A stretch of DNA of 64,000 nucleotides, taken from assembly GCA_947467625.1 (NCBI GenBank), contig CANIJN010000003.1:1-64000 (forward strand). Reading direction: 5' to 3'. The DNA is from Opitutia bacterium (GTDB lineage: Bacteria > Verrucomicrobiota > Verrucomicrobiia > Opitutales > Opitutaceae). The notes under the pieces were generated by a model. The model ran no database searches. It saw only the letters and a list, made by a program, of their open reading frames with translations, and was not told the DNA's origin. Below, piece by piece: positions 3 to 35,818 of the stretch (within the stretch, counting starts at the first letter, position 1; each line of letters starts with the position of its first letter). The position numbers were made by a program, and so were the translations under genes.

Positions 3-743
3 CGCAATGTGCAGGGCACCTTCGGGAAAAACGGTTTTTTCCTCCAGCCTCATTGGCGCGCGGGAGCCAACTATGGGCAGATAACTTTCGAGAACATCGA
101 TCTACGACCGGCCAAGGCCGACTATGGGATCATCCCGTTTGTCTTCTTCCTCGCCGGCCACTTCGAGCACCTCACCTTGCGTAACATCCAGAGCCACCTG
201 CCGGTGGACAGCCGACCGGTGATCTGGGTCATGCCGCACGCGGTGATCGATGTGCTGAGCGTGGAGGGGATGCGGATTTATCAGAAAGATCCTCACTCCG
301 CCAAAGCGCCGGTCATTCAGGTCGATGGGCAGATTGATCTCCTGGCGGTGAAGGATGTGACTCTCTACCGGGCCAAAGAAATGCCGATCGACGGGGCGCT
401 GATTCGGACTGATCCCGATAAGACCAAATGGAAGAACTACCTTCGCGTCGGGACCAGCCAGACGAAACCGAACCCGACAAATTACGGCAAGGTGCCTTTG
501 GACAGCCGCGGCTGGCCGGGCGCTCAGGCCTCGCTGGAAATCATCCCGAAAATCAATCGTCTCCATCTCTCGAATATCACGGCCAACCGGATCAAGAGTG
601 TGGTCCAGCACGATCTCGGCGAAATCGGCCAACTCCAACTCGACAACATCATGACGTCTGAAGTGCCGAATCCGATCTCCGTCAGTGGTGAGGCGAAGAT
701 CGGAGAAATTTCGTCCACGAAAAAAGACGGAAATCGACCATGA
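3..743 (+). CDS. Right-handed beta-helix (GH28/pectate-lyase-like) protein, 5'-truncated by window edge
   Basis: Frame is open to the left edge (RN-VQGTFGKNGFF...); aligns closely with the C-terminal half of the 5480-7105 protein. Confidence 0.8.
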   Translation, partial: RNVQGTFGKNGFFLQPHWRAGANYGQITFENIDLRPAKADYGIIPFVFFLAGHFEHLTLRNIQSHLPVDSRPVIWVMPHAVIDVLSVEGMRIYQKDPHSAKAPVIQVDGQIDLLAVKDVTLYRAKEMPIDGALIRTDPDKTKWKNYLRVGTSQTKPNPTNYGKVPLDSRGWPGAQASLEIIPKINRLHLSNITANRIKSVVQHDLGEIGQLQLDNIMTSEVPNPISVSGEAKIGEISSTKKDGNRP

Positions 744-2287
744 AGCCCGCCATTTCATTCCTCGCGGCGTTGCTGCTCGCACTGACGGGCACGCTCACGG
801 CCGCGGAGCTCTTCGACCCGCTTCCTCGGTCGGTGCCTGCGGTCGAGGGAGTCGATTCTGCGGGCATCGTCCGATTCCTTGAGACGATGGAGGCGCGAGG
901 GTTCGAGTTGCACAGCTTCATGCTCCTAAGGCACGGCAAGGTCGTCGCCGAGACTTGGTGGACTCCCTACGCGCCTGATATCCCGCACGGCCTCTATTCC
1001 TTGAGCAAAAGCTTCGCCTCGACCGCCGTCGGACTGGCCGTGGCGGAGGGACGACTCACACTGGACGACAAGGTGATCTCGTTCTTTCCGGAGTCGCTGC
1101 CACCGCAGGTTAGCGATCACCTCGCCGCCATGCGCGTGCGCGACCTGCTCTGCATGGCCGCTGGTCACGAAAAGGATCCGCAGGATGAAATGGTAAAGTC
1201 CGACGACTGGGTCCGCGCCTTCCTCGCGCAGCCGCTCGTCCGCGCCCCCGGCACGCAATTTGTCTACAGCAGCGCGGCTACCTACATGTGCTCCGCCATC
1301 GTGCAGAAAGTGACTGGCATGACCGTGCTCGCTTATCTCCGACCCCGTCTGTTCGAGCCACTGGGAATCACTGGCATGACGTGGGACACCTGCCCTCGAG
1401 GCATCAATACGGGAGGCTGGGGCCTGAGCGTGCCGACCGAGGGCCTCGCCAAGTTTGGACAACTCTACCTTCAGAAAGGCCAGTGGCAGGGCCGCCAAAT
1501 CCTACCGGCTGCATGGGTCGCGGAGGCCACCTCGTTTCAAATCCAGCAGCCCGCCAAGGCCGGATCGACCCTGCAAAGGGAAGATGACGATAAGCGCCAA
1601 GGGTATGGCTACCAGTTCTGGCGTTGCCGCCACAACGCGGTGCGGGGCGACGGAGCGTTCGGCCAGCTCATCGTGATGATGCCTGATCAGGATGCGGTCG
1701 TCGTGATGACCAGCGAAAGTCGTGACATGATGGAGCAACTTGGCCTGGTCTGGGACCATCTCCTGCCCGCTCTCCAAGGCACTGCGCTTCCGGCCGACGG
1801 AGCCGCGCAGCAGAAACTCACCCGACTCCTCCGCTCCCGCAACCTGGCACCCCAGCGTGGCGTCGGCGGACCCGTAGGCACGCAGACTTTTGCCCTGGAA
1901 CCAAACAGCCTCGGCATCACCCACCTCACCTTGGCCACTACCGGCAAAGCCGTAAACCTTACCGCCACGGTGGATGGCACCGAACATCGCATCGTCCACG
2001 GACTCGGCGAATGGCGTATGAGTGACACCGCCATGCCGGGAACACCCACTCGGCTCGGCGCCGGCACGCTCGCCATGACGACGCGAAGGGTAGCCGCCAG
2101 CGCCGCCTGGCTGGATGCCGCGACGATCGAACTCACCTGGCGCTACCTTGAGTTCCCGCACCGCGATACGGTCACCTGCCGTTTCGATGCAGACCGCGTC
2201 ACCCTGAGCTTTCTGAGCAGCATCACCGTCTTGGGCAGGGCTGCGCCTGCCCGTCCCACACTGACTGGCAAGAGAATAGCCCCATGA
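740..2287 (+). CDS. Serine hydrolase, beta-lactamase class C family, exported
   Basis: Signal peptide MKPAISFLAALLLALTG; SxxK motif in LYSLSKSFASTAVGLAV; ATGA overlap with upstream gene. Confidence 0.85.
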   Translation: MKPAISFLAALLLALTGTLTAAELFDPLPRSVPAVEGVDSAGIVRFLETMEARGFELHSFMLLRHGKVVAETWWTPYAPDIPHGLYSLSKSFASTAVGLAVAEGRLTLDDKVISFFPESLPPQVSDHLAAMRVRDLLCMAAGHEKDPQDEMVKSDDWVRAFLAQPLVRAPGTQFVYSSAATYMCSAIVQKVTGMTVLAYLRPRLFEPLGITGMTWDTCPRGINTGGWGLSVPTEGLAKFGQLYLQKGQWQGRQILPAAWVAEATSFQIQQPAKAGSTLQREDDDKRQGYGYQFWRCRHNAVRGDGAFGQLIVMMPDQDAVVVMTSESRDMMEQLGLVWDHLLPALQGTALPADGAAQQKLTRLLRSRNLAPQRGVGGPVGTQTFALEPNSLGITHLTLATTGKAVNLTATVDGTEHRIVHGLGEWRMSDTAMPGTPTRLGAGTLAMTTRRVAASAAWLDAATIELTWRYLEFPHRDTVTCRFDADRVTLSFLSSITVLGRAAPARPTLTGKRIAP

Positions 2288-3891
2288 AGAATTTACTCCC
2301 AATGAAACCCACGCTCACATTCCTCACCGCCCTGCTGCTTGCGCCGCTGGCCGCGTTGCACGCGGCACCTTCCGCAGATTCCCGCATCGTCGTCGCCAGC
2401 GAGGCGGGCGCGAAGCTCGACAGCGATGTCAACAAGGGCGGCGGCACCGACGACACCGCGCTCATCCAGAGCATCCTGGACCGCGCGCCGAAGCTCGGTT
2501 CACTCACACTGATCGTGGACGGCGCCATCCTGACCTCAGGCCTGAGGATTCACTCGAACACCACCATCCAGTGCCTGAATCGCGCCTGTGGCTTCTACCT
2601 CGCCGACAACTCCAATCGTCCGATTATCGGCAATGCCACGCCCCAGCCCAAAGGCCGGGCGGATCACAATCTTTCGTTCATCGGCGGCACTTACAATGGC
2701 AACGCGGAGCACCAGGAACATTCATCGAAGGACTACGGATGGACTACCGCGTTTGCGCTGCACGGCGTGGAGCAGGTGCTCTTCCGTGATGTTTCCATCA
2801 CCAATGCACGCACCTTCGCCGTCTATCTCACCAACTGGCGGCGGGTGGTCTTTGAGAACATCTACATCAACGTTAACCACATGCCGAAATCCTCGAACCA
2901 GGACGGCATCCACGTCCAGGGCCCGGGCGAGTTCCTGAGCATCCGTAATGTTCAGGGACGCGCGTGGGACGACCTGATTGCGCTGATCATGGACGACCTG
3001 CGTGGCGGTCTGGACAATAAGGGGAAATTTGCCCCCAGTCCGGTCGCTAGTCAGCGATTTAGCCCCAACTCGGCGATAGGCCCCGTGAGCGACGTGGACA
3101 TTGATGGCGTGCAATCGGACGACTGTGCTCAGGTTATCCGCATCCAATCCCGCGCCTCGAGGGTCGACCGCCTCTCGATCCGCAACGTGAAGGGCACCTA
3201 CCGCGATTTCGGCGTCTGGATCACGTCGTATCTGTGCGAGGGTGGCGACTTCGGTCGACTGGAGTTTGAGAACATCGATCTCCGTCCTGGCGGTCAGCGT
3301 GCCTACGACTACGTGCCGCCCTTCCTCTTCTGGCTCGCGGGCAAGATGGAGCAGGTGACGCTCAAAAACATCAGCAGCCATGCGCCGATCGACGACCGCC
3401 CGCTCATATGGATCCAGCCGGACGCGAAGATCGACCGGTTACGCATCGACGGCCTGAACGTATACGACCCGCGCAAGAAAATCGGTCACTCGCCGCTCAT
3501 CCGCGCCGATGGGCACATCGCGCTGCTGCAAGTGCGCGAGGTAGTGGTCCAACGACCGCAGGCCACCTCACCCGCCGGCTCCTTGATCGGCACCTCCCTG
3601 GATCGCTCCGCGCTAAAGGCCTTCATGGATGCTCGGGCCTGGATAGTAAAACCGGGCAACGGGATGCACGGCTGGCCCGAAGCTTACGGCTACCTCACTT
3701 CGCAACCGCAGATTCAGCGGCTGCAAATTGATGACGTCGTCGCCGAGGGCCTGGAGCAACTCCTCGATCATCAAGCGGGAACCATCGAAGCGCTGGACCT
3801 CCGTGACCTCTCGATTCCCGCCACGACGAAGGCTGTTCATCAAGGTGGCGAGGCGAAGATTACCAAAACCCAAGGAGCATCCTTGAAATGA
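2284..3891 (+). CDS. Right-handed beta-helix protein (GH28-like), exported
   Basis: Repeating VDIDGV/IRNVKGT/FENIDLRP strands, NQDGIHVQGPGEFLSIRNV motif; ATGA overlap; alternative inner ATG at 2302. Confidence 0.8.
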   Translation: MKNLLPMKPTLTFLTALLLAPLAALHAAPSADSRIVVASEAGAKLDSDVNKGGGTDDTALIQSILDRAPKLGSLTLIVDGAILTSGLRIHSNTTIQCLNRACGFYLADNSNRPIIGNATPQPKGRADHNLSFIGGTYNGNAEHQEHSSKDYGWTTAFALHGVEQVLFRDVSITNARTFAVYLTNWRRVVFENIYINVNHMPKSSNQDGIHVQGPGEFLSIRNVQGRAWDDLIALIMDDLRGGLDNKGKFAPSPVASQRFSPNSAIGPVSDVDIDGVQSDDCAQVIRIQSRASRVDRLSIRNVKGTYRDFGVWITSYLCEGGDFGRLEFENIDLRPGGQRAYDYVPPFLFWLAGKMEQVTLKNISSHAPIDDRPLIWIQPDAKIDRLRIDGLNVYDPRKKIGHSPLIRADGHIALLQVREVVVQRPQATSPAGSLIGTSLDRSALKAFMDARAWIVKPGNGMHGWPEAYGYLTSQPQIQRLQIDDVVAEGLEQLLDHQAGTIEALDLRDLSIPATTKAVHQGGEAKITKTQGASLK

Positions 3892-5483
3892 AAATGTTGA
3901 TCATGAAACCCACCCTTACATTCCTCACCGCCCTGCTGCTTGCGCCGCTGGCCGCGTTGCATGCCGCGCCCTCCGCGAACGCCCACATCGTAATCGCCAG
4001 CGAGGCGGGCGCGAAACTCGACAGCGACGTCAACAAAGGCGGCGGCACCGACGACACCGCGCTCATCCAGAGCATCCTCGACCGTGCGCCGAAGCTCGGT
4101 TCGCTCACACTGATCGTGGACGGCGCCATCCTGACCTCAGGCCTGAGGATTCACTCGAACACCACCATCCAGTGCCTGAATCGAGCCTGCGGCTTCTATC
4201 TGGCGGACGCATCCAATCGCCCGATTGTCATCAATGCAACGCCCCAACCGCAAGGCCGCGCGGATCACAATCTGTCGTTCCTCGGCGGGACTTACAACGG
4301 CAATGCTGCGCACCAGGAACACCACACGGAAGAATATGGCGCTACAACGGCGTTCGCCCTGCATGGGGTGGAGCAGGTGCTCTTACGTGATGTCTCCATC
4401 ACCGACTCACGGACATTCGCCGTTTACCTCACCAATTGGCGGCGCGTCGTCTTCGAGAACATCTACCTCAATCTCGAGCATATTCCGAAGCAATCGACTC
4501 AGGACGGCATCCATGTCCAGGGCCCCGGCGAGTTCCTGAGCATCCGCAACGTCCAGGGCCGCTCGTGGGATGACATGATCGCACTGACCAACGACGGCCT
4601 GGCAGGCGACTGGAACAGCGAGGGGCAATTCGTTCGAGCGACGAACCGCAATTCCGGCAAATACTCGGGCATGGGTGCTGTGAGCGATGTGGACATCGAC
4701 GGCGTCCAGGCATTCGACTGTGCTCAGATCATCCGCATCCTGTCACGTGCTGCTCGGCTGGACCGCGTTTCCATCCGCAACGTGAAGGGAACCTACCGGG
4801 ACTTTGGCGTCTGGATCACACCCTATTTCCGCGAGGGCGGGAACATCGGGCGGCTGGAGTTTGAGAACATCGACCTACGTCCCGTCGGTCCAAGCGCCTA
4901 CGATTATGTGCCGCCCTTCCTCTTCTGGTTCGCGGGCAAGATGGAGCAGGTAACGCTCAAGAACATCAGCAGCCACGCGCCCATCGACGACCGCCCGCTC
5001 GTCTGGATCCAGCCGGACGCGAAGATTGATCGGCTGCTCATCGATGGCTTGAACGTCTATGATCCGCGCAAGGAAATCGGCCACGCGCCACTCATCCGCG
5101 CCGATGGGCGCATCGCGTTGCTGCAAGTGCGCGATGTCGTCGTCCAACGTCCGCAAGCCCAGGCGCCCGCCGGCTCCCTGATCGCCACCTCGCCGGATCG
5201 CTCGGCGATGAAGGCCTTCATGGATGCCCGGTCCGGTATCGTGAATCCCAAAGGCATGCGTGGCTGGCCCCAAGGTCCCGGCTACCTCACCATGCCGCCG
5301 CAGATTCATCGCCTGCAGATCAGCGGCGTCGTCGCCGAAGGACTGGAGCACATCCTCGATCATAAAACCGGCACCATCGAAGCGCTGGACCTCCGTGACC
5401 TCTCGATTCCCTCCACGACGAAGGCTGTTCATCAAGGTGGCGAGGCGAAGATTACCAAAACCCAAGGAGCATCCTTGAAATGA
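3888..5483 (+). CDS. Right-handed beta-helix protein, paralog of 2284-3891
   Basis: Very high protein and DNA similarity to the preceding gene; alternative inner ATG at 3903. Confidence 0.8.
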   Translation: MKMLIMKPTLTFLTALLLAPLAALHAAPSANAHIVIASEAGAKLDSDVNKGGGTDDTALIQSILDRAPKLGSLTLIVDGAILTSGLRIHSNTTIQCLNRACGFYLADASNRPIVINATPQPQGRADHNLSFLGGTYNGNAAHQEHHTEEYGATTAFALHGVEQVLLRDVSITDSRTFAVYLTNWRRVVFENIYLNLEHIPKQSTQDGIHVQGPGEFLSIRNVQGRSWDDMIALTNDGLAGDWNSEGQFVRATNRNSGKYSGMGAVSDVDIDGVQAFDCAQIIRILSRAARLDRVSIRNVKGTYRDFGVWITPYFREGGNIGRLEFENIDLRPVGPSAYDYVPPFLFWFAGKMEQVTLKNISSHAPIDDRPLVWIQPDAKIDRLLIDGLNVYDPRKEIGHAPLIRADGRIALLQVRDVVVQRPQAQAPAGSLIATSPDRSAMKAFMDARSGIVNPKGMRGWPQGPGYLTMPPQIHRLQISGVVAEGLEHILDHKTGTIEALDLRDLSIPSTTKAVHQGGEAKITKTQGASLK

Positions 5484-7105
5484 AAATGCTGATCTTGAAA
5501 CCCTTCCTCGCATTCCTCACCGCGCTGCTGCTCGCGCCGCTGGCCGCGTTGCACGCGACACCTTCCGCAGACGCCCGCATCGTCGTCGCCAGCGAGGCCG
5601 GCGCGAAACTCGACAGCGACGTCAACAAAGGCGGCGGCACCGACGACACGGCGCTCATCCAGAGCATCCTCGATCGCGCGCCGAAGCTCGGCTCGCTGAA
5701 GCTGATCGTCGATGGCGCGATCCTCGTGCGGGGGCTGAAGGTTCACTCCAACACGACCATCGAGTGCCTTAGCAGCGCTTGCGGATTCTTCCTCGCGGAC
5801 CACTCCGACCAGCCGATCTTCATCAACGCCGATCCCTCGCGCACGGAGCGCAAGAACCAAAACATCGCGTTCCTGGGTGGCACCTACAACGGAAACTCCG
5901 CAAACCAAACCCCACACACAATGGAGTCAAAGTTGCCGCCAGGACGGAACTGGACCGTCGGTATCGGCTTGTATGGCGTGGAGCAGGTCACGATGCGCGA
6001 TGTCACCATCAGGGACATGACCACCCTCGCCGTCCAGTTCTCGAACTGTGAGCGCGTCACCTGCGAGAACGTCTTCATTCACGTCGGCCAAAAGCCCATT
6101 CCATTCCAGTGCGGCATTCAATTCCATGGCCCGGGCCGGTTTCTCTCCATGCGAAACATCCATGGCAACCCTGGCGATGACATCATCGCCATCATTGCCG
6201 ACGGCATCTATAGCGACTGGAACAAGCAGGGCGAGTTCACTTACAACGATTTTATGGGACCCAACGTCAGCTTCGGTCCCATCAGCGATGTGGACATTGA
6301 CGGTGTGTTCATTGACGGGGCGCACAACGGCATCCGCATTTCCTCCCGCGCCTCGCGGGTGGATCGAATATCCATCCGAAATGTGCAGGGCACCTTCACC
6401 AAGTATGGCTTCTTCATCTCGCCTCAGTGGCGTCCGGGAGGCGATTTTGGGCGGATCACCTTTGAGAACATCGACCTTCGTCCGCTGGAGCCCGACTTCG
6501 GGCCGCTGCCCTTCATATTTCTGATCCAGGGCAACATCGAGCAACTCACGCTGCGCAACATCCACAGCCACCTGCCCGTGGACAGCCGGCCCGTGGTCTG
6601 GGTGCAGCCGAGTTCCGACATCGGCGTGCTGCGCGTAGACGGGATGAGCATCTACCAAAAGGACCCGCGCTCCGCCCAGACTCCCGTGATCCAGGTGGAC
6701 GGGCACATCGACCTTCTTTCCGTGAACAACGTGACTCTCTTTCGCCCCAAGGAAATCCCCATCGCTGGGTCGTTAGTCCGCACGGACCCGGATAAGACCA
6801 AGTTGAAAAAATACTACGCTATCGGACGGAGCGTGCTCAATGCCTCATATCCTTGGGCAGTGGACGGACGCGGCTGGCCGGAAGCCTTGCAGAGTCTCGA
6901 ACGCAAGCCGCAGATCAATCGCCTCCATCTCTCGAACATCACCGCCAACCGGATCAAGAGCGTCGTCCAGCATGACGTCGGCGAAATCGGTCAACTCCAG
7001 CTCGATAACATCATGACCACTGAAGTGCCGAATCCGATCTCGGTCATCGGCGCAGCGAAGATCGGAGAAATCTCATCCACGACGAAAAAGGAAAATAGAC
7101 CATGA
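5480..7105 (+). CDS. Right-handed beta-helix protein, paralog (subtype of the truncated left-edge gene)
   Basis: N-terminus nearly identical to neighbours, C-terminal half closest to the 3-743 gene. Confidence 0.8.
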   Translation: MKMLILKPFLAFLTALLLAPLAALHATPSADARIVVASEAGAKLDSDVNKGGGTDDTALIQSILDRAPKLGSLKLIVDGAILVRGLKVHSNTTIECLSSACGFFLADHSDQPIFINADPSRTERKNQNIAFLGGTYNGNSANQTPHTMESKLPPGRNWTVGIGLYGVEQVTMRDVTIRDMTTLAVQFSNCERVTCENVFIHVGQKPIPFQCGIQFHGPGRFLSMRNIHGNPGDDIIAIIADGIYSDWNKQGEFTYNDFMGPNVSFGPISDVDIDGVFIDGAHNGIRISSRASRVDRISIRNVQGTFTKYGFFISPQWRPGGDFGRITFENIDLRPLEPDFGPLPFIFLIQGNIEQLTLRNIHSHLPVDSRPVVWVQPSSDIGVLRVDGMSIYQKDPRSAQTPVIQVDGHIDLLSVNNVTLFRPKEIPIAGSLVRTDPDKTKLKKYYAIGRSVLNASYPWAVDGRGWPEALQSLERKPQINRLHLSNITANRIKSVVQHDVGEIGQLQLDNIMTTEVPNPISVIGAAKIGEISSTTKKENRP

Positions 7106-8616
7106 AAAAGTCCCTCACCTTCCTCACCGCCCTGCTGCTCGCGCCGCTGGCTGCACTGCAAGCCGCCGATGCGCCGAAGCAGAAACCCAACCTCGTCATT
7201 ATCTTCACCGACGACATGGGCTATGCCGACATCGGCGCATACGGCTGCAAGGACATCCCCACACCTCATATCGACCGGCTCGCCGCCGAGGGCACCAGGT
7301 TCACCAGCGCCTACACCGTCGCGCCCGTCTGTGTGCCTTCGCGCATGGGGCTCATGAGCGGTAGGTTCCCCGCCCGCTTCGGTGTCTTCGACAACCCCAT
7401 ACGCCAGCAGCAAGTCCAGATATGCCAGATATGGATGCAGCAGATCACCCTAGCCGACGTGCTCAAAAAACAAGGCTACCGCACCGCCACCATCGGCAAG
7501 TGGCATCTCAGCGGGCACAGTGACTTTGAGTTCAAGCCACCGCACGAGCGCGGATTCGACGAGTTCGTCGGCGTCACGGGCGGCTTAAGTTCGTTTTGGA
7601 AGGGCACGGAACTCGTGCGGCTGAAGGACGGCAACTATGAGCGGTTCAAATCGCCGGACTACCTCACCAACTTCTTCGGCACCGAGGCCTGCGAGTTCAT
7701 CCAGCGGCAGAAAGACGGTCCGTGGTTCCTTTATCTGGCCTTCAATGCCCCGCATGCGCCGCTCGACGGACTTGATGAGGATCAGGCCGCCATCGAGGCG
7801 AAGGACATCAGTTCCAACCGTCGCAAATACGCCGCGATGGTCCGCGCCGTCGACCGCAACATTGGCCGCGTGATGGAAAAGATCCGCGAACTCGGCCTCG
7901 CCGGAAACACGCTGGTTGTTTTCACCAATGACAACGGCGGCGGCGGTAACAACATCGCCATTCACACCCGTAACACCGCAATTAACATCCCATACCGCGG
8001 CCACAAGTTCGACGTCTTGGAGGGCGGCGTGCGGGTGCCTTTCATCATGCACTGGCCCGGCCAGGTGCCCGTCGGCCAAACCTTCGATGGCATCGTCAGC
8101 ACGGTGGATGTGTTCCCAACCTTTGCCAAAGTCGCCAACGCCACCCTGCCCGGCAACTTGGACGGCGTGGATCTCATGCCTTACATCCAGGGCAAAAAGA
8201 CCGGCCACCCGCACGACACCCTCTGCTGGCAGCAGCGAATCTTTGCCAGACCGAACGAACGCAAACCCGGCCCCGTCTATCCCGTGCCCGCTTACAACCT
8301 GGCCATCCGCAGCGGTAAATGGAAAGCCATCAAGCTCGACCAACCCTTCGACGGCACCGACGACTCCCGCGCCCAGGAACTCTACCCCAACCAGACCTAC
8401 CCCACCCAGGCCAGCGTCGATAACATGCGTCCCGAAGACGCCCGCCCCTGGGAACTCTACGACCTGAGTCGCGACCCCGCCGAACTGAACGACCTCGCCA
8501 CCGAGTTCCCTGATAAAGTGAAGGAACTCAGCGCAGCCTTTTTCGCCTGGCAGAAACAGATGCCCAAGCCCGTGCCGCCGCCCGTCGCGACCAAAACCGA
8601 AGCCAAGCAGAAATAG
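7102..8616 (+). CDS. Sulfatase (arylsulfatase A family)
   Basis: KPNLVIIFTDDMGYAD start and formylglycine motif CVPSRMGLMSGR. Confidence 0.93.
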   Translation: MKKSLTFLTALLLAPLAALQAADAPKQKPNLVIIFTDDMGYADIGAYGCKDIPTPHIDRLAAEGTRFTSAYTVAPVCVPSRMGLMSGRFPARFGVFDNPIRQQQVQICQIWMQQITLADVLKKQGYRTATIGKWHLSGHSDFEFKPPHERGFDEFVGVTGGLSSFWKGTELVRLKDGNYERFKSPDYLTNFFGTEACEFIQRQKDGPWFLYLAFNAPHAPLDGLDEDQAAIEAKDISSNRRKYAAMVRAVDRNIGRVMEKIRELGLAGNTLVVFTNDNGGGGNNIAIHTRNTAINIPYRGHKFDVLEGGVRVPFIMHWPGQVPVGQTFDGIVSTVDVFPTFAKVANATLPGNLDGVDLMPYIQGKKTGHPHDTLCWQQRIFARPNERKPGPVYPVPAYNLAIRSGKWKAIKLDQPFDGTDDSRAQELYPNQTYPTQASVDNMRPEDARPWELYDLSRDPAELNDLATEFPDKVKELSAAFFAWQKQMPKPVPPPVATKTEAKQK

Positions 8617-8624
8617 ACCAAACC

Positions 8625-10442
8625 ATGAAACCCACCGTTTCATTCCTAGCGGTCTTGCTGCTAGCGCCGTTCGCCGTCTGCGACGTCGCCCAAGTGAAGC
8701 AGCCCAACGTCCTTCTCATCATCACGGACGACCAGGGCTACGGAGATTTTTCCATCCATGGTAACCCGCACCTGCAAACGCCGCACATCGATAAGCTCGG
8801 CTGGGAAAGCGTGCGATTCGACCGCTTTTATGTGAACTCGTTCTGCGCCCCTACGCGGGCGGCCTTGCTCACGGGGCGCTGGCCGCTGCGAACCGGTTGC
8901 CATGGGGTCACGAACAATGCCGAGGCCATGAGACCTTCCGAGGTGACACTCGCCGAGGCGCTGGGTGGTGGTGGCTACCGGTCGGCGTGCATCGGCAAGT
9001 GGCACAACGGCGAACAGTATCCCTACACGCCGATAGGTCAGGGTTTCGACGAAGCGTTTGGCTTCAACAACGGACATTGGAACAATTACTTTGATCCAGT
9101 CCTATTACGAGGCTCCCAGCCCGAGCAGACGAAGGGCTACATCACCGACGTGTTCACCGACGAGGCGATGAAGTTCATCACCACGAACAAGACCAAGCCC
9201 TTCTTCTGCTACCTGTCCTATAACGCACCACACTCGCCCTATCAGGTGCCGGACCGCTACTTTGACAAATTCAAGGCCAAGGGCTTCGACAACACCGTCG
9301 CCGCCTTCTACGGCATGTGTGAAAACCTCGACGACAACGTGGGGCGCCTGCTGGCACATCTCGAGGCCGAGCAGCTCGCGGACAACACCATCGTCCTCTT
9401 CCTTACGGACAACGGCGGCACCGCCGGAGTGAAAACCTACAACGCCGGGATGCGCGGCGGAAAAACCAGCGTGCATGAGGGGGGCACGCGCGTTCCGCTC
9501 TTTATGCGCTGGCCTGCCGCGAAATGGCAGCCGCACCTCGCCACCCCCATCGTCTCGCACATTGATCTGTTCCCCACGCTGCTCGACCTCTGCGGGGTGA
9601 AGGCATCGGATGGGCCCAAGGTCGATGGCGTCACCCTGCGGCCACTCCTGGAAAAAGGCGGACGCGCCGCGTGGCCGGAGCGCACCCTCTTCACGCACAA
9701 TCCCATCGACGAGACCAACAAGTTCCCGGGAGCTGTGCGCACGCAACGCCACCGCCTCGTCCGCGAAATCAGGGGTCCCGCCGGCGGCTCGAGCGCCAAG
9801 GCGAACGACGCGAGCGCCACACCCTGGCAGCTCTACGACATGGAGACGGATCCCAGCGAGACGAAGGACATCGCCGCCGACCACCCCGACATCGTGCAGC
9901 AGCTCAGCGCCCGCTACGACGCGTGGTTTGCCGACATTTCCCGCGAAGGCCTGGAGCGTTTCCCGTTGCCGGTCGGTTATGCCGAACACAACCCTGTCGA
10001 ACTGCACGCACCGCAAGCGTTCTTCACCAAGCCGCTCCAGTTTGCCGTGGGTGTTAGTTCCGGCGCCGCCAACGACTGGCTCACCGCCTGGACGGATGCG
10101 CAGGGGAAAGTTTGGTTCGAGATCGAGGTGGCCACCGCCGGCGAATATGACATCGAACTCGCTTACGCGTGTTCTCCCTCCGATGCCGGTTCGCGCCTGC
10201 GTATCAGCGTGGGTAGCGAGTCATTCGAGACCGTCATTCCCGCGGCCCTCGCACGGGAAATCCCGCTGCCTCACCGCGACGAAAAGGCCAAATACCGCAG
10301 CCTCGATTGGGCCACGCTCAAAGCTGGCACACTCAAGCTCTCAAAAGGCCTGGCCAAGCTCACACTGCAGCCGCTTACCATGCCCGCAGCACAGGTGATG
10401 GATTTGAAACAGGTGAAGCTGTCGCTGCGAAAATCGAAATGA
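8625..10442 (+). CDS. Sulfatase with extra C-terminal beta-sandwich-like region
   Basis: QPNVLLIITDDQGYGD, formylglycine motif CAPTRAALLTGR. Confidence 0.92.
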   Translation: MKPTVSFLAVLLLAPFAVCDVAQVKQPNVLLIITDDQGYGDFSIHGNPHLQTPHIDKLGWESVRFDRFYVNSFCAPTRAALLTGRWPLRTGCHGVTNNAEAMRPSEVTLAEALGGGGYRSACIGKWHNGEQYPYTPIGQGFDEAFGFNNGHWNNYFDPVLLRGSQPEQTKGYITDVFTDEAMKFITTNKTKPFFCYLSYNAPHSPYQVPDRYFDKFKAKGFDNTVAAFYGMCENLDDNVGRLLAHLEAEQLADNTIVLFLTDNGGTAGVKTYNAGMRGGKTSVHEGGTRVPLFMRWPAAKWQPHLATPIVSHIDLFPTLLDLCGVKASDGPKVDGVTLRPLLEKGGRAAWPERTLFTHNPIDETNKFPGAVRTQRHRLVREIRGPAGGSSAKANDASATPWQLYDMETDPSETKDIAADHPDIVQQLSARYDAWFADISREGLERFPLPVGYAEHNPVELHAPQAFFTKPLQFAVGVSSGAANDWLTAWTDAQGKVWFEIEVATAGEYDIELAYACSPSDAGSRLRISVGSESFETVIPAALAREIPLPHRDEKAKYRSLDWATLKAGTLKLSKGLAKLTLQPLTMPAAQVMDLKQVKLSLRKSK

Positions 10443-10522: not shown

Positions 10523-10620
10523 AAATTGGCATCCCCCATAGGGAAAAATGCGGCCGTCCGGGTGGAGCATTCAAAAATTTACGTTAAGAAAACGACAATG
10601 GCTGAAGAAACCGAAAATCC

Positions 10621-12417: not shown

Positions 12418-12437
12418 TTCTCTTTTGGAGACATCCC

Positions 12438-13229
12438 ATGAAACAGATGCTCACACTTCTCACCGCCCTGCTGCTCGCGCCGCTGGCCGCGGTGCAGGCT
12501 GCCGGCGCAATCGCACCGCCCGGCGATCGGAACCTGCCGATTAACCAGATCTATCCGCCAGAGGCCTTCTACCACCACGGCAAAGGCGGTCGCGTGCTGG
12601 ACGTCACCAAGCCGCCTTTCAATGCCAAGGGTGACGGCAAAACCGATGACACGCAGGCGCTGTGCGACGCGATGCGCTTTGTGCGTGACCATTACGAAGA
12701 CCTGGCGGGCGAAGGATATTCCTACGCCAGTTACAAGTTTGCCCAGAACTGGATCATTTATCTGCCCAACGGCGAGTATCTGGTCAGTAATACCATCAGC
12801 CAAGGCTGGCCGGCGCGCGCCTACGATATCAAGAAAGGCTGGGGTGATATCAAGCCGGAGTTATTCGACATTGAATTCGAATGGGACGCAACACGGCAGG
12901 GCGATTTTCAACTCAAGGTTTGGGACCAGGAACTCTTCAGCTTCAACGCCAAGGAGTCGACCTACGAGGTTCATGGCCGGAATGGTATCACGATCCACTC
13001 AAAGTGGAGAATTTCTCCCGTGAACGGCACCATCAAAGTGCGCCTGATTTGCGACCGGAGCATCTGCAGCTACTTCATCAACGATGGCTACGAGGCGGGT
13101 AACCGCTACCTGGCCGGTTTCCGCCCTGAATGTAATCAGGCCTTGAGTCTTCAGGGCGACGGTGGAACGATTTTCAGGACGTTTCAATTCCGCGCCCTGC
13201 GCCCGACGTGGAAGACGGCGGCTCGATGA
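12438..13229 (+). CDS. Chimeric exported protein: truncated pectate-lyase-like N-terminus + GH32-like C-terminal beta-sandwich
   Basis: VLDVTKPPFNAKGDGKTDDTQAL (pectate lyase superfamily start) followed by ELFDIEFEWDA..FQLKVWDQELFSFNAKESTYEV..NGTIKVRLICDRSICSYFINDG (GH32 C-terminal type). Confidence 0.7.
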   Translation: MKQMLTLLTALLLAPLAAVQAAGAIAPPGDRNLPINQIYPPEAFYHHGKGGRVLDVTKPPFNAKGDGKTDDTQALCDAMRFVRDHYEDLAGEGYSYASYKFAQNWIIYLPNGEYLVSNTISQGWPARAYDIKKGWGDIKPELFDIEFEWDATRQGDFQLKVWDQELFSFNAKESTYEVHGRNGITIHSKWRISPVNGTIKVRLICDRSICSYFINDGYEAGNRYLAGFRPECNQALSLQGDGGTIFRTFQFRALRPTWKTAAR

Positions 13230-14380
13230 ACAACTCTAAGACTTTGAAACCCACCCCCACATTCCTCACCGCCTTACTGCTTGCACCGCTGGCCGCACTG
13301 CATGCTGCCGACCACGCCACTTTCGTGAACGAGGACGCATGGCATTATTTCACGGCCGCGCCGGATGTGAAACGCGGCCTTGGCGACGAGGACAATCCGC
13401 CGATGCGTCCCGAATTTACGCTCACGAAGAAGGGGCTTGAAAACTACATCGACGAAATCGCGCGCGGACACGTGACGCATTTCCTCATGAATCTCAACTC
13501 CCAGCGCGCCAACTTCCCCTCGAAAACGTTCGAGCCCCTCTGGAAATCGCTCGATGAGCCGGAGCGCTACCACCCCGATTACATTCGCGCCATGAAGGCG
13601 CTCTACGAAAGCGGCGTCGACCCTTACAAGGTGTGGATCGATCGTTGCCGCATCAAGGGGATACAGCCATGGATTTCGATCCGCATGAACGATCTCCACC
13701 GTGTGGACGAACCGAAGAGCCCGAATATCTCGACCTTCTGGCACGAACATCCCGAATACCGTTTGAGGCCCGAAGGGTGGAATAGCGGGCTCGACTACAC
13801 GCTCGAACCCGTCCGCAAGCGCATGCTCGATTTCATCACGGAGGTCCTCGGCCGTTACGACCCCGACGGACTCGAACTCGACCTCATCCGTTTCCCGTTC
13901 TACCTTCCCAAAGGTCGCGAAAAGGAATGTGCACCGATCTTTACGGCGTATATGCGGGAAATCCGTAAAGTCGTCAATGCAGCGGCGGCGAAACGCGGCC
14001 ACACGATCACCCTCTCCGTTCGACTCCTGCCGAAACCCTCCGAATCGCGCAACCTCGGCATGGAAGCGGACGTCTGGGCGAAGGCAGGCATCGTCGATGT
14101 TATCGTCACATGCAATCACTGGGCGACCATCGATTTCGACATTCCGCTCGCCGAGTGGCGCACCTGGACGGGTGATAAGGTCCCGATCTTTCCCGGTGCC
14201 GACTCCGGCATCGCCGAAAACGGCAAACGCCGGTTCGCGAACTTCGAAGAATACCGCCGTTGGGCCCGTATCATGCACGAACGAGGTGCGAAAGGCCTCT
14301 ACCTTTTTAATCTTTTCCAACATCCGCAGGACGGCCCCGTCTGGAACGGCGTCCTGTCGGGCGGTCTCGCACCGCTCTAG
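13226..14380 (+). CDS. Exported glycosyl-hydrolase-like TIM-barrel protein (GHL10/family-10-like)
   Basis: YDPDGLELDLIRFPFYLPKG; shared signal peptide; ATG 13226 gives ATGA overlap with upstream stop. Confidence 0.6.
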   Translation: MNNSKTLKPTPTFLTALLLAPLAALHAADHATFVNEDAWHYFTAAPDVKRGLGDEDNPPMRPEFTLTKKGLENYIDEIARGHVTHFLMNLNSQRANFPSKTFEPLWKSLDEPERYHPDYIRAMKALYESGVDPYKVWIDRCRIKGIQPWISIRMNDLHRVDEPKSPNISTFWHEHPEYRLRPEGWNSGLDYTLEPVRKRMLDFITEVLGRYDPDGLELDLIRFPFYLPKGREKECAPIFTAYMREIRKVVNAAAAKRGHTITLSVRLLPKPSESRNLGMEADVWAKAGIVDVIVTCNHWATIDFDIPLAEWRTWTGDKVPIFPGADSGIAENGKRRFANFEEYRRWARIMHERGAKGLYLFNLFQHPQDGPVWNGVLSGGLAPL

Positions 14381-14574
14381 GGTTTTCGAAAAACTAAACC
14401 AGGCGGGTGGAGCAACAGGTCACACCAAGCCGACGATTGGCACGATTGCGCGGAGTTTACTGGAAAACCTCAACCAGCTCGCTCACGGGAGGCAAGACGT
14501 CTTGAAATCTGTGGTCGGCCGCTTGCCTGTCAGCCAGCCGATGACGGAAAGCCAACCAAGAAAGACCCCACGTC

Positions 14575-16212
14575 GTGAAATCCAGCCTCTCCCTCCTCAC
14601 GGCTCTGCTGCTCGCGCCGCTGGCCGTGCTACACGCCGCGGACGCCATCCGACCGAACATCCTCTTCATCATCGCCGATGATCTTGGTTGGGGCGACCTG
14701 CGCTGCTACGGCAATCCCGTAATCGACACGCCCACGCTCGATGGGCTGGCGAAGGCGGGCGTCCGCTTCACCGATCACTACTCGCCGTCGGCGTTGTGTG
14801 CGCCGGCTCGCGCGGGATACCTCACGGGGCGCTATAATCATCGCACCGGAGCCGTGGACGTGCCGAGCAATCGCGGGCTCGACCGGCTCGATTTCTCCGA
14901 GAAGACCTTCGGCGACTACTTCCGTCATGCGGGCTATGCCACGGCGCTTATCGGCAAGTGGCACAACGGCGCTTATTCCCGGGACCAACTTCCACACCGG
15001 CGCGGATTCGACCAGTTCTTCGGCTTTCCCAACGGCGGGCAGGATTACTGGAAATGGAACCTGCTCCGCAACGATGCCGCGGTGCCGCACGACGGGCGCT
15101 ATCTCACGGAGGCACTCAACGATGAGGCCATCACGTTCATTCGTTCGCACGCGGCCAAGCCCTTCGCGTTGTGGCTCGCGCATCATGCGCCGCACGGTCC
15201 ACTGCAGGCTCCGGAGGCCTTCGTGCAGAAATACGAGAAGCGCTTGGGCAGGGACGCCACCAAAGCTGTGGCAGTCACGTATGCGATGATCGAGGCAATG
15301 GACACGGGCCTGGCGCGCGTGTTTCAGACGCTCAAGGACGAGGGCGTGTGGGAAAAAACGATCATCGTGTTCACGAGCGACAACGGCCCCGTGCTGAGAC
15401 GCGACCCGGAACTCGGTTCGCAGCTGCGTTTCAACGGTGGCTTCTCCGGCGAGAAAGAGTCGGTCTTGGAAGGCGGCATCCGCGTGCCCGGCATTGTCGC
15501 CTGGCCCGGTCACATCCCGGGTGGACGGGTCGAGTCCACACCGGTCCACGGCTGCGACTGGCTGCCCACCCTCTACAGCCTCGCGGGAAAGTCCGCGCCA
15601 ATCGGCGCCAAACCGTTCGACGGCCTGAACCTGATGCCCTTGCTCGAAGGGAAACCGGCTCCCGCAGTGGCCGGGCGTTTCCTGCCGTTTCAACGCAACC
15701 GCTACGCGCCGGTGCGACATGTCAACGCGTCCATTCGCGAGGGCCGCTGGAAGCTATATTGGCCCGGCGAAGAGGCCTCGTTCAGGAAGGACGGCGGTCG
15801 CGACAATCCCTCGTTCCAGCGTGGCTTGGTTCGCCCGCATTGGGAGATGCCGCTCGACAGGCAACTCGACCCGCCCACCACCGCACCGCAACCGCCGCCT
15901 CGCCTCTACGATCTCGAGATCGATCCCAGGGAACAGCATGATCTGGCAACCGCTCGGCCCGAAATCGTGAAGACCCTCACCGCGAAACATGAGGCCTGGT
16001 TCTCCGGAGTGGTCGCCGAGTGGGAGCAATCCCGCGCCCGCGTCGTCGAACAGGATCGCGCTTACTGGAAGGAGCGCCGGGCCCCGGATCCCGCAGCGCT
16101 GTTTCAGGAATTCTGGCAATGGCAGACCGTCCCGATGGGCACTGATCCCAAGACCGCCGATCCGCTGAAAATCTTCCGAGGCTATTGGAATGACCCGGAG
16201 ATTCGGCGCTGA
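14575..16212 (+). CDS. Sulfatase
   Basis: RPNILFIIADDLGWGDLRCYG; formylglycine motif CAPARAGYLTGR; GTG start. Confidence 0.92.
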   Translation: MKSSLSLLTALLLAPLAVLHAADAIRPNILFIIADDLGWGDLRCYGNPVIDTPTLDGLAKAGVRFTDHYSPSALCAPARAGYLTGRYNHRTGAVDVPSNRGLDRLDFSEKTFGDYFRHAGYATALIGKWHNGAYSRDQLPHRRGFDQFFGFPNGGQDYWKWNLLRNDAAVPHDGRYLTEALNDEAITFIRSHAAKPFALWLAHHAPHGPLQAPEAFVQKYEKRLGRDATKAVAVTYAMIEAMDTGLARVFQTLKDEGVWEKTIIVFTSDNGPVLRRDPELGSQLRFNGGFSGEKESVLEGGIRVPGIVAWPGHIPGGRVESTPVHGCDWLPTLYSLAGKSAPIGAKPFDGLNLMPLLEGKPAPAVAGRFLPFQRNRYAPVRHVNASIREGRWKLYWPGEEASFRKDGGRDNPSFQRGLVRPHWEMPLDRQLDPPTTAPQPPPRLYDLEIDPREQHDLATARPEIVKTLTAKHEAWFSGVVAEWEQSRARVVEQDRAYWKERRAPDPAALFQEFWQWQTVPMGTDPKTADPLKIFRGYWNDPEIRR

Positions 16213-16465
16213 CGGCCCCGGGGGGACTTGTAATCACGCAACACGGTCTTACACGCATTTCCGGATTGTTCGGCACGCGACTTGCCGCGCTTGCCACTCC
16301 GCCGACAAATGCCCGCGACCAGTCCGTCGTTTTGTCCTCATGATTCTGCTCGCGGTTCGCCGGCGATTTCTCGCGCTGTTTTCAGCCGCCGTTTATCGGA
16401 AAGATTCCCAAATCCTACAGGCTGCAAACCAAACGGAAGCAGGCGGTTTCAGATTTATTAAGCGA

Positions 16466-16491
16466 CACTTCGTAAGTGATATTGACAATAT
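16466..16491 (+). promoter_or_regulatory. Two adjacent perfect palindromes upstream of the ROK gene, second overlapping a TTGACA -35-like box
   Basis: CACTT-CGT-AAGTG (16466-16478) and ATATTG-A-CAATAT (16479-16491); TTGACA at 16482, AAATAT 18 nt downstream. Confidence 0.5.
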
Positions 16492-16534
16492 GTTATTCGC
16501 GGCGCAAATATGCGGCGTTTAATTATTTATTGAT

Positions 16535-17743
16535 ATGGTCGCCCCCGAGCTTCTCTCAAAGATCAACGAACGACGCGTGCTTGAGTTTATACAGGCCAGT
16601 GGTCCGTCCTCCCGGGCGGCGATGGTGAGAGCATGTGGGATGAGTGCTCCGACGGTTTCGAAGGCGGTCGCTTCGTTAGTTCGGCGCGGATTCCTTGAAG
16701 AAAGTGGCTTGAGCGAGGGGTTCGGTCGGCCGGGAAAGCTGCTGCAGCTTTCCGAACAGACCGCAAACGTGCTTTGGGTTGTCGTCGATGCCGGCATGTG
16801 TTGGGCAGGCAGCGCGAGGCTCGATGGCGAAGTTTCGGAGGAAAACGTGCGGTCGTTTTCGACTCCGGAAACTTATGCGGAGCTGCTGTCGGCGATTGAG
16901 CAGCACCTTTCGGATTTCGTCGGCGGCGAAGTCTCCACCCTGGGTTCGCGATTTCGGGGAGTGGGGGTGAGCGTGCCCGGCCTGCTGAATTCGCGGCTGG
17001 ATCGGACCGTCATATCGCCAAATCTGCATCTTCTCGATGATCAGTCTCTGGCCTCCGAACTGAGCCGCCGGCTGGGATTGCGCTGCGTGGCTCTGCAGGA
17101 ATCTCACGCCCTCTGTGTTGGGGAGCGGATGTATGGTGCCGCCCGCGGGATGGACGATTTCGCGATGTTGGATGTCAGCACAGGGCTGGGGCTGGGTATC
17201 TTCAGCGGCGGAAGACTGCTGACCGGCAACAGCGGCATGGCCGGTGAGATCGGTCACATCACGGTGGAGCGCGCGGGCATCCGCTGCGGTTGCGGCAATC
17301 GGGGTTGCCTCGAGACCGTGGCCACCGATTCCGCCTTTGTCCGGGAAATGTCTCATCTCCTCGGGAAATCGGTTGGAATCAACGAAGCCATCCATGCGAT
17401 CCGAAGCGGACGGGTGGACTCCGCCGCCGTGGTCGAGCGCACCGTCGATTACATGGCGATCGCGGTCGCCGCCGTGATCAACGTCTTCAACCCGTCGACC
17501 CTGTTCCTCCATGGAAAGCTGCTGGCCTCAGACCAGGCGATCTTCGATCGCGTGCTCGCGGAAGCAGGGAGGCGGACGCTGAAGCCCTCCTTCGCCGACT
17601 GCCGAATTCTGCAGTCGCAGGGCAACAAGCGGCTCGGAGCCGTGGCGGGCATTATCGGGAACCTGGCGGACGAAATGGCGCCGTCCATGGCTTGGTTTGA
17701 ACCGGGAGGGGCGAAAACGATCTCCGCTCCTGGAGGCGAATAA
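16535..17743 (+). CDS. ROK family transcriptional regulator
   Basis: N-terminal HTH (SRAAMVRACGMSAPTVSKAVASL) and ROK signature GEIGHITVERAGIRCGCGNRGCLETV. Confidence 0.9.
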   Translation: MVAPELLSKINERRVLEFIQASGPSSRAAMVRACGMSAPTVSKAVASLVRRGFLEESGLSEGFGRPGKLLQLSEQTANVLWVVVDAGMCWAGSARLDGEVSEENVRSFSTPETYAELLSAIEQHLSDFVGGEVSTLGSRFRGVGVSVPGLLNSRLDRTVISPNLHLLDDQSLASELSRRLGLRCVALQESHALCVGERMYGAARGMDDFAMLDVSTGLGLGIFSGGRLLTGNSGMAGEIGHITVERAGIRCGCGNRGCLETVATDSAFVREMSHLLGKSVGINEAIHAIRSGRVDSAAVVERTVDYMAIAVAAVINVFNPSTLFLHGKLLASDQAIFDRVLAEAGRRTLKPSFADCRILQSQGNKRLGAVAGIIGNLADEMAPSMAWFEPGGAKTISAPGGE

Positions 17744-17748
17744 ACGCC

Positions 17749-20268
17749 ATGAAACGCAATCTCGCACTCTTCAGCGCGCTGATGGTGGCGCCTCTCGCCA
17801 CACTCCGAGCTGCGGACAAGCCGCCCCGGCCCATCTCCACTCTGATCGAGCAGAACTGCCTCGACTGCCATGACGGGGAGACCAAGAAGGGCGCGCTCGA
17901 TCTCACGGAGCTGACGTTTGATCTGACCGATCCGAAACGGATGGAGCGCTGGGTGCAGATATTTGACCGGGTGGAGAAAAAAGAGATGCCGCCTGCGAAC
18001 GAGGAAATGACCGCCGACGACAGGAAGGCGTTGCTGGCCGCCTTGGAATCCCCGTTGTATACGGCGAGCGCGGCCGCCACGGCGGAGAAGGGGCGCGGCC
18101 CCATGCGGCGGCTCAATCGCATCGAGTTCGAGCAAAACCTGCGTGACCTGCTGGAACTTCCGTATCTCGACATCCGCGACATGCTGCCGGCGGATCGCGA
18201 GTCGCATCACTTCGACAAGGTCGCGTCCACGCTGGACATCTCGCATGTGCAGCTCACGGCTTACCTGGATGCAACGGAGACGGCGTTGCGTCAGGCCATG
18301 GTGACGTCATCCGCGCCGCTGAAGTCGAAAAAGACGCGAGTGGTGGGTCGCCAAATCGGTCCGCGTGGTATCGTGGGTGGCGTGCAGTCGATGTTCTATG
18401 CGCGGGATGGCAAAGGCTTGGCGACACTGGACCAGCAAGCGGACGAAGTCGCAAAAGACAGGGACGATCCCAGCCTTGAGTTAGCCTTGTTCCGCTCGCC
18501 GGGATGGCCGTATGCGGTGTATCCGAAGAACATCATCGCCAGCGCCACGGGCGAGTATCGCGTGCGGTTCTCCGCGCAGTCGGTGCTGCAAACGGAGGGA
18601 TTGATTTTCAAGCCAGGCACGCGGCCCGTGCCCATGAATTTCCGCGCCCGCAAGCCCACGAACCACGACATTGCCGAGGACGTGCGCGCCACCGGCGGTG
18701 TCATCGACGTGCAACCCGGAGGCGGCGTGTATGAAACGACGGTCTATCTGCTCGCCGGCCAGACGATCGAGTATGGCCTGCTCGGCTTGCCGGCGCCGCA
18801 GATCGATGCGCAGGGCAAGGTGGGCTACTACCGTTATCCGCCCTTGCCAGAGGGTGGTCAGCCGGGCATCGCGTTTCAGTGGCTAGAAATGGAAGGCCCC
18901 ATCGCTCCGGCATCCTGGCCGCCCGCTTCGCATCGCGTGCTGTTTGATGATCTCGGTGCCGACGTGAGATCGGCCACGCCAACCGCGGACGCGAAACGAC
19001 TCCTGCGCCGCTTTATCGCCCGCGCCGCACGCGAGCCGGTGGCGGAAGACGCGATTCCGCCATTTGAAAAACTCGTGCTCGATGCCTTGCAGAACGGCGC
19101 GCCACTCGGCGAGGCGTTACTCGTCGGTTATCAGGCGTTCCTCAGCTCCAATCTGTTTCTGTATCTGCGCGAACCCCGGACGAAGGACGGTCATTTCGCC
19201 ATCGCCAACCGGCTCTCGCATTTCCTCACTGATTCGCGGCCCGATGGGGCGCTCGCAACGCTCGCGGCGCAAAAGAAGCTGCGCGATCCGGCCACGTTGC
19301 GTGCGGAAACGGACCGGCTCATCTCCAGCGCGGGCTTCGCGCGCTTCGTGAATCATTTCACCGACTGCTGGCTGAACCTGCGCGAACTTCGCCGCGATGA
19401 TCCCGACATCCGGCTTTATCCGGAATATCGGCTCGATGATTATCTCGTCGAATCGATGGGCCTGGAGACGCGCGCATTCTTCACTGCGATGCTGCGCGAG
19501 AATTTGCCCGCGACTTCGCTCATCCAGAGCGACTTCGCTTTCGTCAACGACCGCCTCGCGCGACACTACGGCCTGCCCGCGGTGAGCGGCGCGGCGCTGC
19601 GCCGGGTCGAATTGCCGAAGGGCAGTCCGTATGGCGGACTGCTCACCCAGGGCGCCATCTTGAAGGTATCCGCGAACGGCACCAGCACTTCGCCCGTGCT
19701 GCGCGGCGTGTGGATCATGGAGCGTCTCATCGGCGACCCACCACCGCCGCCGCCGCCCGGTGTGCCGGCCGTGGAGCCGGATATACGCGGAGCGAAAAGC
19801 ATCCGCGAACTTATCGCCCAGCACACGAACACGAAGACGTGCGCCAACTGCCACGCGAAGTTTGATCACGTCGGTCTCGCGCTCGAAAACTTCGACATCC
19901 TCGGCGCCTGGCGCACGCGTTATCGCGGCACGAGCGACGGCGAGCGCATCACCGGCATCGACCGCGCCGGCCACGATTTTGCCTTCACCCTCGCGGGCGC
20001 GGTCGATCCCAGCGGCAAATTTGCCGACGGCCGCACGTTTGCCGACATCCACGGCCTGAAAGCGATCTTCACCGCCAACCCGCGCAGACTCGCCCGGAAT
20101 CTCCTGCATCAGTTCGCGCTGTATGCCACCGGCACGCCCGTGCAATTCTCCGACCGTCGCGACATCGAGGAGCTGCTCGATGCGTGTGCGAAGGACGGCT
20201 ACCGCGTGCGCGATCTCGTGCATGCTCTCGTGCAAAGCCCAATCTTCCTCGGAAATCCAAAGCGATGA
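17749..20268 (+). CDS. DUF1592/DUF1588/DUF1585-type planctomycete cytochrome-like protein
   Basis: CLDCH near N-terminus and TCANCHAKFDHVGLALENFD; PPPPPPPGVPAVEPDIRGA. Confidence 0.88.
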   Translation: MKRNLALFSALMVAPLATLRAADKPPRPISTLIEQNCLDCHDGETKKGALDLTELTFDLTDPKRMERWVQIFDRVEKKEMPPANEEMTADDRKALLAALESPLYTASAAATAEKGRGPMRRLNRIEFEQNLRDLLELPYLDIRDMLPADRESHHFDKVASTLDISHVQLTAYLDATETALRQAMVTSSAPLKSKKTRVVGRQIGPRGIVGGVQSMFYARDGKGLATLDQQADEVAKDRDDPSLELALFRSPGWPYAVYPKNIIASATGEYRVRFSAQSVLQTEGLIFKPGTRPVPMNFRARKPTNHDIAEDVRATGGVIDVQPGGGVYETTVYLLAGQTIEYGLLGLPAPQIDAQGKVGYYRYPPLPEGGQPGIAFQWLEMEGPIAPASWPPASHRVLFDDLGADVRSATPTADAKRLLRRFIARAAREPVAEDAIPPFEKLVLDALQNGAPLGEALLVGYQAFLSSNLFLYLREPRTKDGHFAIANRLSHFLTDSRPDGALATLAAQKKLRDPATLRAETDRLISSAGFARFVNHFTDCWLNLRELRRDDPDIRLYPEYRLDDYLVESMGLETRAFFTAMLRENLPATSLIQSDFAFVNDRLARHYGLPAVSGAALRRVELPKGSPYGGLLTQGAILKVSANGTSTSPVLRGVWIMERLIGDPPPPPPPGVPAVEPDIRGAKSIRELIAQHTNTKTCANCHAKFDHVGLALENFDILGAWRTRYRGTSDGERITGIDRAGHDFAFTLAGAVDPSGKFADGRTFADIHGLKAIFTANPRRLARNLLHQFALYATGTPVQFSDRRDIEELLDACAKDGYRVRDLVHALVQSPIFLGNPKR

Positions 20269-35800: not shown

Positions 35801-35818
35801 AATATCCAAGAAGTGACC

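Follow-up and report, generated by a model that had tools for sequence, protein, structure and literature searches.

A conserved, predicted signal-peptide coding block at homology breakpoints of secreted-enzyme genes in Verrucomicrobiota

The described systems closest to the one reported here are mobile promoters, the constant modules of PE/PPE proteins and polymorphic toxins, integron gene cassettes, REPINs and the vpma, vsp and vsa loci of Mycoplasma. Our subject is a 68-bp coding block that opens unrelated genes in the first 64,000 nucleotides (the window, meaning the whole stretch analysed) of contig CANIJN010000003.1 of an Opitutia bacterium (Opitutaceae, assembly GCA_947467625.1), whose genome is termed G000. 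This block is probably a horizontally circulating signal-peptide sequence, conserved as DNA, that serves as an in-frame adapter for homologous recombination and for the swapping of secreted-enzyme genes.

Mobile promoters and other cases of horizontal regulatory transfer involve a short 5' segment that moves between unrelated genes and genomes, as the block seems to do. Here, unlike there, the segment is a predicted translated export signal, and the flanking promoters usually differ between copies. PE/PPE proteins and polymorphic toxins carry a constant secretion module on non-homologous downstream parts, plausibly through recombination in the constant part. In the case of the block, by contrast, the module is a predicted cleavable signal peptide of 21-22 amino acids, and the parts exchanged are entire enzyme genes from many Pfam families.

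Integron gene cassettes also form co-directional, promiscuous gene arrays with a repeated junction sequence and are exchanged between bacteria. The block differs from them in having no attC-like fold (z 0.06) and no integrase linked to its arrays, and in lying at the translated 5' coding end. REPINs and other RAYT-associated repeats are populations of short sequences with a master sequence (PMC8049555), and a palindromic companion is present here too. The block itself, unlike REPINs, is coding, non-palindromic and placed at the start codon, with the palindromic character found in the companion (z -3.45). The vpma, vsp and vsa loci are gene families with a common 5' sequence at which downstream genes exchange, and there too the signal sequences are common. 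They use a site-specific recombinase of the Xer1 tyrosine type, whose vpma sites lie between positions -72 and -1 relative to the start codon (PMC2268961), and a single promoter, by inversion in one locus of related lipoproteins. The block, on the contrary, is coding, genome-wide, attached to non-homologous genes, in direct repeats (80:1), spread across classes, and has no linked recombinase except in one case.

In the open-access literature searched, we found no paper with the block peptide or a comparable system. Recombination at common 5' tracts is already known from mycoplasma; a coding signal-peptide sequence that joins non-homologous genes across classes was not found in the literature searched.

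The block and its copies

The block runs for 68 bp from the ATG to the presumed signal-peptidase site, with bounds taken from one representative of each of 85 mature-protein clusters. Among these representatives, conservation extends from the start codon to ...CACGC-CGCCGA, and both flanks are at background except for the A-rich region of the ribosome site. The consensus DNA is ATGAAACACACCCTCACCCTCCTCACCGCCCTGCTGCTCGCGCCGCTGGCCGCGCTGCACGCCGCCGA, and the encoded peptide MK(H/P)TLTLLTALLLAPLAALHA-A(D/E), given likewise as MKHTLTLLTALLLAPLAALHA-A(D/E). By inspection, we predict a Sec-type signal peptide of 21-22 amino acids, putatively cleavable. The form MK(P/H/K)xLTLLTALLLAPLAALHA-AD/E has the features of the SPase I type: a positive n-region, a hydrophobic h-region and small residues before the predicted cleavage site.

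A sequence-only reading of the window had placed this block at the start of unrelated genes between 740 and 17820. Its 32-nt core has 7 matches in the window with at most 3 mismatches (2323, 3924, 5516, 7123, 12459, 13265 and 14596) and 0 in shuffles. The peptides and leaders are as quoted there, and the 7102 sulfatase and the 12438 gene do share exactly 29 consecutive identical bases. Among the looser versions it listed, 740 and 8625 hold, as genome comparisons break there, but 17749 is only a distant look-alike. The short extra leaders look real, since homology to other genomes begins at the inner ATG (2302, 3902-3903). The copies do lie in the interval given, but the phenomenon is not confined to it, being genome-wide and phylum-wide.

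Over the whole genome, an amino-acid-level pattern returns 23 matches with at most 3 mismatches, and its reversed control 0. The longest exact match between the 14596 copy and the other G000 copies compared is 22 nt, and for other non-paralogous copies it is 29-34 nt.

Across about 30 genomes, 224 copies (at most 8 of 41 mismatches) precede the 85 clusters of mature protein. Carriers are mostly metagenome-assembled genomes (MAGs) of Verrucomicrobia and Lentisphaerae from lakes and groundwater, with labels that are partly unreliable (one MAG is labelled Klebsiella). The largest cluster is formed by sulfatases, with 55 copies. Other block genes encode beta-helix/GH28-like, GH2, GH32, GH127 and BNR-repeat proteins, PQQ beta-propellers, an FAD oxidoreductase and, with a looser block, a beta-lactamase-family protein. 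Orphan and truncated copies also exist.

The conservation is seen at the DNA level. With a pattern free at all synonymous sites, consensus codons are used at 0.74 against 0.41 expected in this genome (z 8.1), and at 0.86 against 0.42 in other genomes (z 11.8); over the 12 best-sampled genomes, the match is 0.85 against 0.41. A synonymous-blind pattern still returns nearly identical bases in other classes of the phylum. Codon bias with constraint on a hydrophobic leader, a caveat raised by the sequence-only reading, is insufficient for this identity, which lies well above the codon-bias expectation. The clustering of gene starts that it proposed covered 585 genes (0.94 of the 5.59 Mb of the genome): 15 non-homologous pairs have a 20-mer in common within their first 150 nt, and all of these are block genes; the control at nt 240-390 gives 0 pairs.

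Differences from the consensus number 795, with 340 non-synonymous and 455 synonymous (0.75, against 1.69 under neutrality), in a copy set partly gathered with DNA patterns having some third positions free, where bias, if any, acts against non-synonymous differences. This ratio implies only mild protein constraint.

Furthermore, the copies are star-like, with essentially one consensus in every genome. Copies within a genome are no more alike than copies between genomes, different classes included (8.46 and 8.32 differences per 46, permutation p 0.78), and therefore intragenomic gene conversion is not the main signal and, as sole cause, is ruled out. Since local conversion alone would homogenise the copies of one genome, frequent exchange between lineages is required. 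A 5' cassette that is copied, recombined or gene-converted had been proposed. The identity beyond codon bias, its restriction to the block and the homology breaks on it bear out this idea, though not mainly as intragenomic conversion, and with the refinement that the block marks the junction where a whole downstream gene is exchanged more than a pasting onto resident genes.

Within the window, the histories of signal peptide and mature protein disagree. In their mature parts, the 2284 and 3888 products have 71-72% amino-acid identity to the 27333 product and only 50% to the 5480 product, yet they have the block in common with 5480 only and not with 27333.

Homology breaks and gene exchange

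Alignments by blastn of the window to related loci yield tracts that repeatedly begin or stop in the block. Homology of downstream genes begins at or near the block ATG (2302, 3902-3903, 7098-7101 and 14585). The clearest layout is around the 14575 sulfatase, where window positions 13245-14642 and 16158-19784 are 91-92% identical to contig C187 of genome G437. The mature sulfatase between them (14642-16158) is replaced in C187 by about 4.1 kb of other DNA, from the last base of the block. At two more G437 loci, the upstream flank (84% and 75% identical) and the block recur but lead into yet other genes, with homology ending at 14638 and 14636. In these nucleotide alignments, a shared gene end, intergenic DNA, ATG and block lead into four different genes (14575 and the three G437 loci). 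Similar homology ends were found at 740-807 and 8625-8676.

We compiled break statistics over 0.56 Mb from 12 genomes, with 451 unique alignment ends and block windows making up 2.2% of the sequence. Block windows hold 215 of the 451 ends, or 17.3 per kb, compared with 1.06 at non-block gene starts and 0.41 elsewhere. Where one side is homologous, a break at the start occurs on the downstream side in 43 of 48 block genes against 7 of 20 others (p 1e-5), and on the upstream side in 32 of 38 against 9 of 19 (p 0.006). Tracts homologous upstream stop at the 3' end of the block, and those homologous downstream start at its 5' end. Overlap of tracts inside the block is expected, since alignments run on through sequence common to all copies. 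What is informative in these alignments is that unrelated genes begin at the block end while the non-coding flank up to the ATG is common.

Among 234 pairs of copies that resemble each other in their upstream DNA, 213 differ downstream, where the genes are non-homologous. Part of these pairs belongs to the family of the palindromic companion element, but the pattern recurs in about twenty further flank families, many of which are the ends of adjacent genes. Neighbouring copies point in the same direction in 80 of 81 cases (80:1), that is, they are direct repeats.

Ordinary horizontal transfer of gene clusters, combined with codon bias and with purifying selection that keeps a good Sec signal peptide, would leave the block without a special role. 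The clusters do hold secreted carbohydrate-active enzymes and sulfatases, an often-transferred class, and the amino-acid constraint is mild. This explanation is quite improbable, as codon identity is twice the expectation, no second case exists among 585 genes, breakpoints are much more concentrated at the block than at other gene starts, and unrelated genes stand behind the same upstream flank.

Mis-joins of metagenome contigs at a short repeat could also place unrelated genes behind one block, given that MAGs make up most of the genomes and that several copies have a contig end within about 300 bp. We regard such an artefact as barely conceivable, because the copies carry private substitutions (longest exact matches 22 nt and 29-34 nt) and the junction flanks, at 75-92% identity, record old events. 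The block is also found inside contigs of 0.36-1.35 Mb.

The adapter reading, as a sequence of steps, would be the following. Block DNA would circulate among Verrucomicrobiota by horizontal transfer, and genes of secreted carbohydrate-active enzymes stand in co-directional arrays, with one copy starting each gene. RecA-type homologous recombination between copies may drive the exchange. Judging from the junctions, a crossover inside the block would keep the resident flank, start codon and ribosome site in place and put a new mature gene behind them, in frame and already carrying the export tag. Direct repeats in such arrays would permit insertion, loss and replacement of whole genes, and export in frame may be the reason why these events survive.

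The adapter reading would explain how imported polysaccharide-degrading enzymes and sulfatases come to be properly exported in bacteria with large, variable sets of them, such as many Verrucomicrobiota. The block acts as if it were a standard connector: by genome comparison, whole genes are swapped in and out exactly there, in this bacterium and in distant relatives. If the adapter reading is true, any swap at the block would automatically be in frame, export-tagged and under resident control. Bacteria would thereby have a counterpart of exon shuffling, acting on the address label of a protein; the reading would predict sites of gene exchange, and could be tested with reporters. Signal peptides could then not be presumed to co-evolve with mature proteins.

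A number of points weigh against recombination at the block. The evidence consists of end-state junctions in genomes, and 68 bp at 80-100% identity is a short tract for RecA to recombine efficiently. Some second breakpoints lie away from blocks, as at window 16158 within the 3' end of the sulfatase. The non-block control for breaks next to a homologous side is small (20 and 19 cases). Many copies were found via DNA-based patterns, which favour conserved DNA, a bias from which the synonymous-blind searches and the clustering of gene starts are free. Equal distances within and between genomes are not what local gene conversion alone gives, so that frequent transfer between lineages must be assumed. 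Lastly, about 29 of the 224 copies have no long open reading frame (ORF) downstream, and some precede a short peptide or the palindromic element, both of which also fit an element-like insertion.

Distribution, companion element and recombinases

The block is patchy. A scan of about 85,000 species genomes with a stricter pattern returned 34 loci. Almost all belong to MAGs with the labels Verrucomicrobia, Lentisphaerae or Opitutae; a few odd labels occur besides, and many of the names refer to lakes or groundwater. Within the phylum, 7 of 388 genomes carry it (26, 18, 11, 4, 1, 1 and 1 matches). By the strict pattern it is present in 5 of 57 relatives, all in the genus of the window, and in 0 of 28 other genera sampled from the family. 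The sequence-only reading had allowed for a slowly evolving sorting signal equally common across distant genomes, and this spread is at odds with it. Viral contigs gave 0 matches. Carriage by plasmids was rejected, with only short, partial, chance-like matches (Streptomyces, Tistrella and others).

Constraint on the nucleotides themselves would be another way to conserve synonymous sites, and the bounds of the block do match a functional unit. Here, the 5' mRNA would be selected for translation, localisation or small-RNA binding, and unrelated genes would converge on or retain the same bases. Such constraint is highly improbable: folding of the block as RNA or hairpin is no better than in shuffles (z 0.06 and -0.57), non-synonymous changes are common (340 of 795), hence a loosely held sequence, and neither the patchiness nor the gene-replacement junctions are predicted. 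In the flanks of the block, the only known RNA family found was a tRNA.

Some copies adjoin a palindromic companion element (CGGGCGAAACTTGCCGGG) of ~140 bp, with three TTCCAA/TTGGAA hairpins, ending in GACGAACAGATGAAAACGAAAGGAACAACC and with a fold z of -3.45. The element is found immediately upstream of some blocks, one of them in this genome (C168). In a dozen cases it follows the block directly with an abrupt, constant junction, giving block-element-block tandems 187-196 bp apart in several genomes; these tandems imply that some copies travel as a larger composite. Two Lentisphaerae-type MAGs have 290 and 527 first-look candidates of the element, which is rare elsewhere.

These tandems bear on element-like spread, the main rival to recombination at the block, with which it may coexist. 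In its general form, the signal-peptide sequence would be a selfish or exchanged mobile unit, copied as the 68-bp block or as a ~190-bp composite between unrelated genes and across classes, in a manner like exon shuffling that would give secretion in one step. We hold this to be possible, though doubtful.

The more specific version, a discrete mobile element (alone or in the ~190-bp composite) pasted by a RAYT-type Y1 transposase, whose in-frame insertions survive via export, is unlikely. It is suited by the palindromic element abutting many blocks, the constant-junction tandems, the orphan and truncated copies and the star-like pattern with a single master. One of the two Y1 transposase genes found in G000 (RAYT-like, L233 3175-4298, contig C319) also starts about 100 bp downstream of a block copy. 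On the other hand, most copies are without the palindromic element (G000 has 2 matches to it and about 20 blocks), and no further Y1 transposase was found near copies in the block-rich genomes compared. Y1 transposases occur in carriers and non-carriers alike, with equal numbers in block-free members of the family, and no target duplication or terminal repeat was seen at the block. As the upstream flanks common to copies are the ends of adjacent genes, they speak for an exchange of genes at the block and not for its insertion.

In the case of tyrosine recombinases (PF00589), only one was found within 5 kb of a listed block copy among 8 genomes (G437 C187). No dedicated recombinase is evident for the block, with a tyrosine recombinase and a Y1 transposase near it once each, and a general linkage to either was looked for and not found. 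The gene of this tyrosine recombinase (L235 9645-10601) is directly upstream of the block array in C187, which is syntenic with the window.

Feature coordinates and further observations

Table 1. Block copies and related features; positions refer to the window unless a locus is named.
Feature	Position	Strand	Basis
Looser block of beta-lactamase-family gene 740-2287	740..807	+	G438 C97 homology spans intergenic region and block, stops at 807
68-bp block of beta-helix gene 2284-3891, core 2323-2363, extra leader MKNLLP ahead	2302..2369	+	G437 homology begins at 2302
Block of beta-helix gene 3888-5483, leader MKMLI	3903..3970	+	Core match, peptide, genome comparison
Block of beta-helix gene 5480-7105, leader MKMLI	5495..5562	+	G438 synteny begins at 5506, inside block
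Block of sulfatase gene 7102-8616	7102..7169	+	Homology to G437 C257 begins at 7098
Looser block of sulfatase gene 8625-10442	8625..8676	+	Homology ends: G438 at 8637, G437 C257 at 8676
Block of pectate-lyase-like chimeric gene, ORF 12414-13229	12438..12505	+	Core match, peptide
Block of GH-like gene 13208-14380, more diverged (6/41 mismatches)	13244..13311	+	Homology breaks at 13245 and 13311
Block of sulfatase gene 14575-16212	14575..14642	+	Homology ends at 14642, 14638 and 14636 at three G437 loci
Distant look-alike leader (MKRNLALFSALMVAPLATLRAAD) of gene 17749-20268, membership uncertain	17749..17816	+	Peptide only
Block-free beta-helix paralogue, unrelated signal peptide, discordance control	27333..28949	+	Mature part 71-72% identical in amino acids to 2284 and 3888 products
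Degenerate core copy (10/41 mismatches) in ORF 35705-37018	35741..35781	+	Core match
Alternative head with the same core	L038 3396; L057 4840 and 6094; L131 8256; L135 (rc) 2434; L211		
Companion element adjoining block	L028 2940-3260; L125 7441-7668; L133 10668-10850; L006/L072 (G000 C168 4370-4437)		

Block copies within about 300 bp of contig ends were noted in G000 (C319, C309), G426 (C18, C73) and G432 (C229). Block arrays seem to break assemblies, which suggests that they are undercounted.

Besides the block, the 12438 gene is an internal chimera, as its 3' part (window 12849-13311) is 75% identical to the 3' end of a block gene of 764 amino acids in G437 (L235 5870-5429). Further along the window, ORF 35705-37018 opens with the decayed core copy (RPALLLALLIALHVADSTKPN) and then has a second partial leader, MKTTLTLDTALL.

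Several genomes have an alternative 5' segment (KSAWQAVSLRSA-LTALLL...) before the core, that is, a second head spliced to the same core at CTCACC. In L046 (2475-2560), an FAD oxidoreductase has a leader of the twin-arginine type into which the core is fused (MKTTRREFI-LTALLLAPLAALHA).

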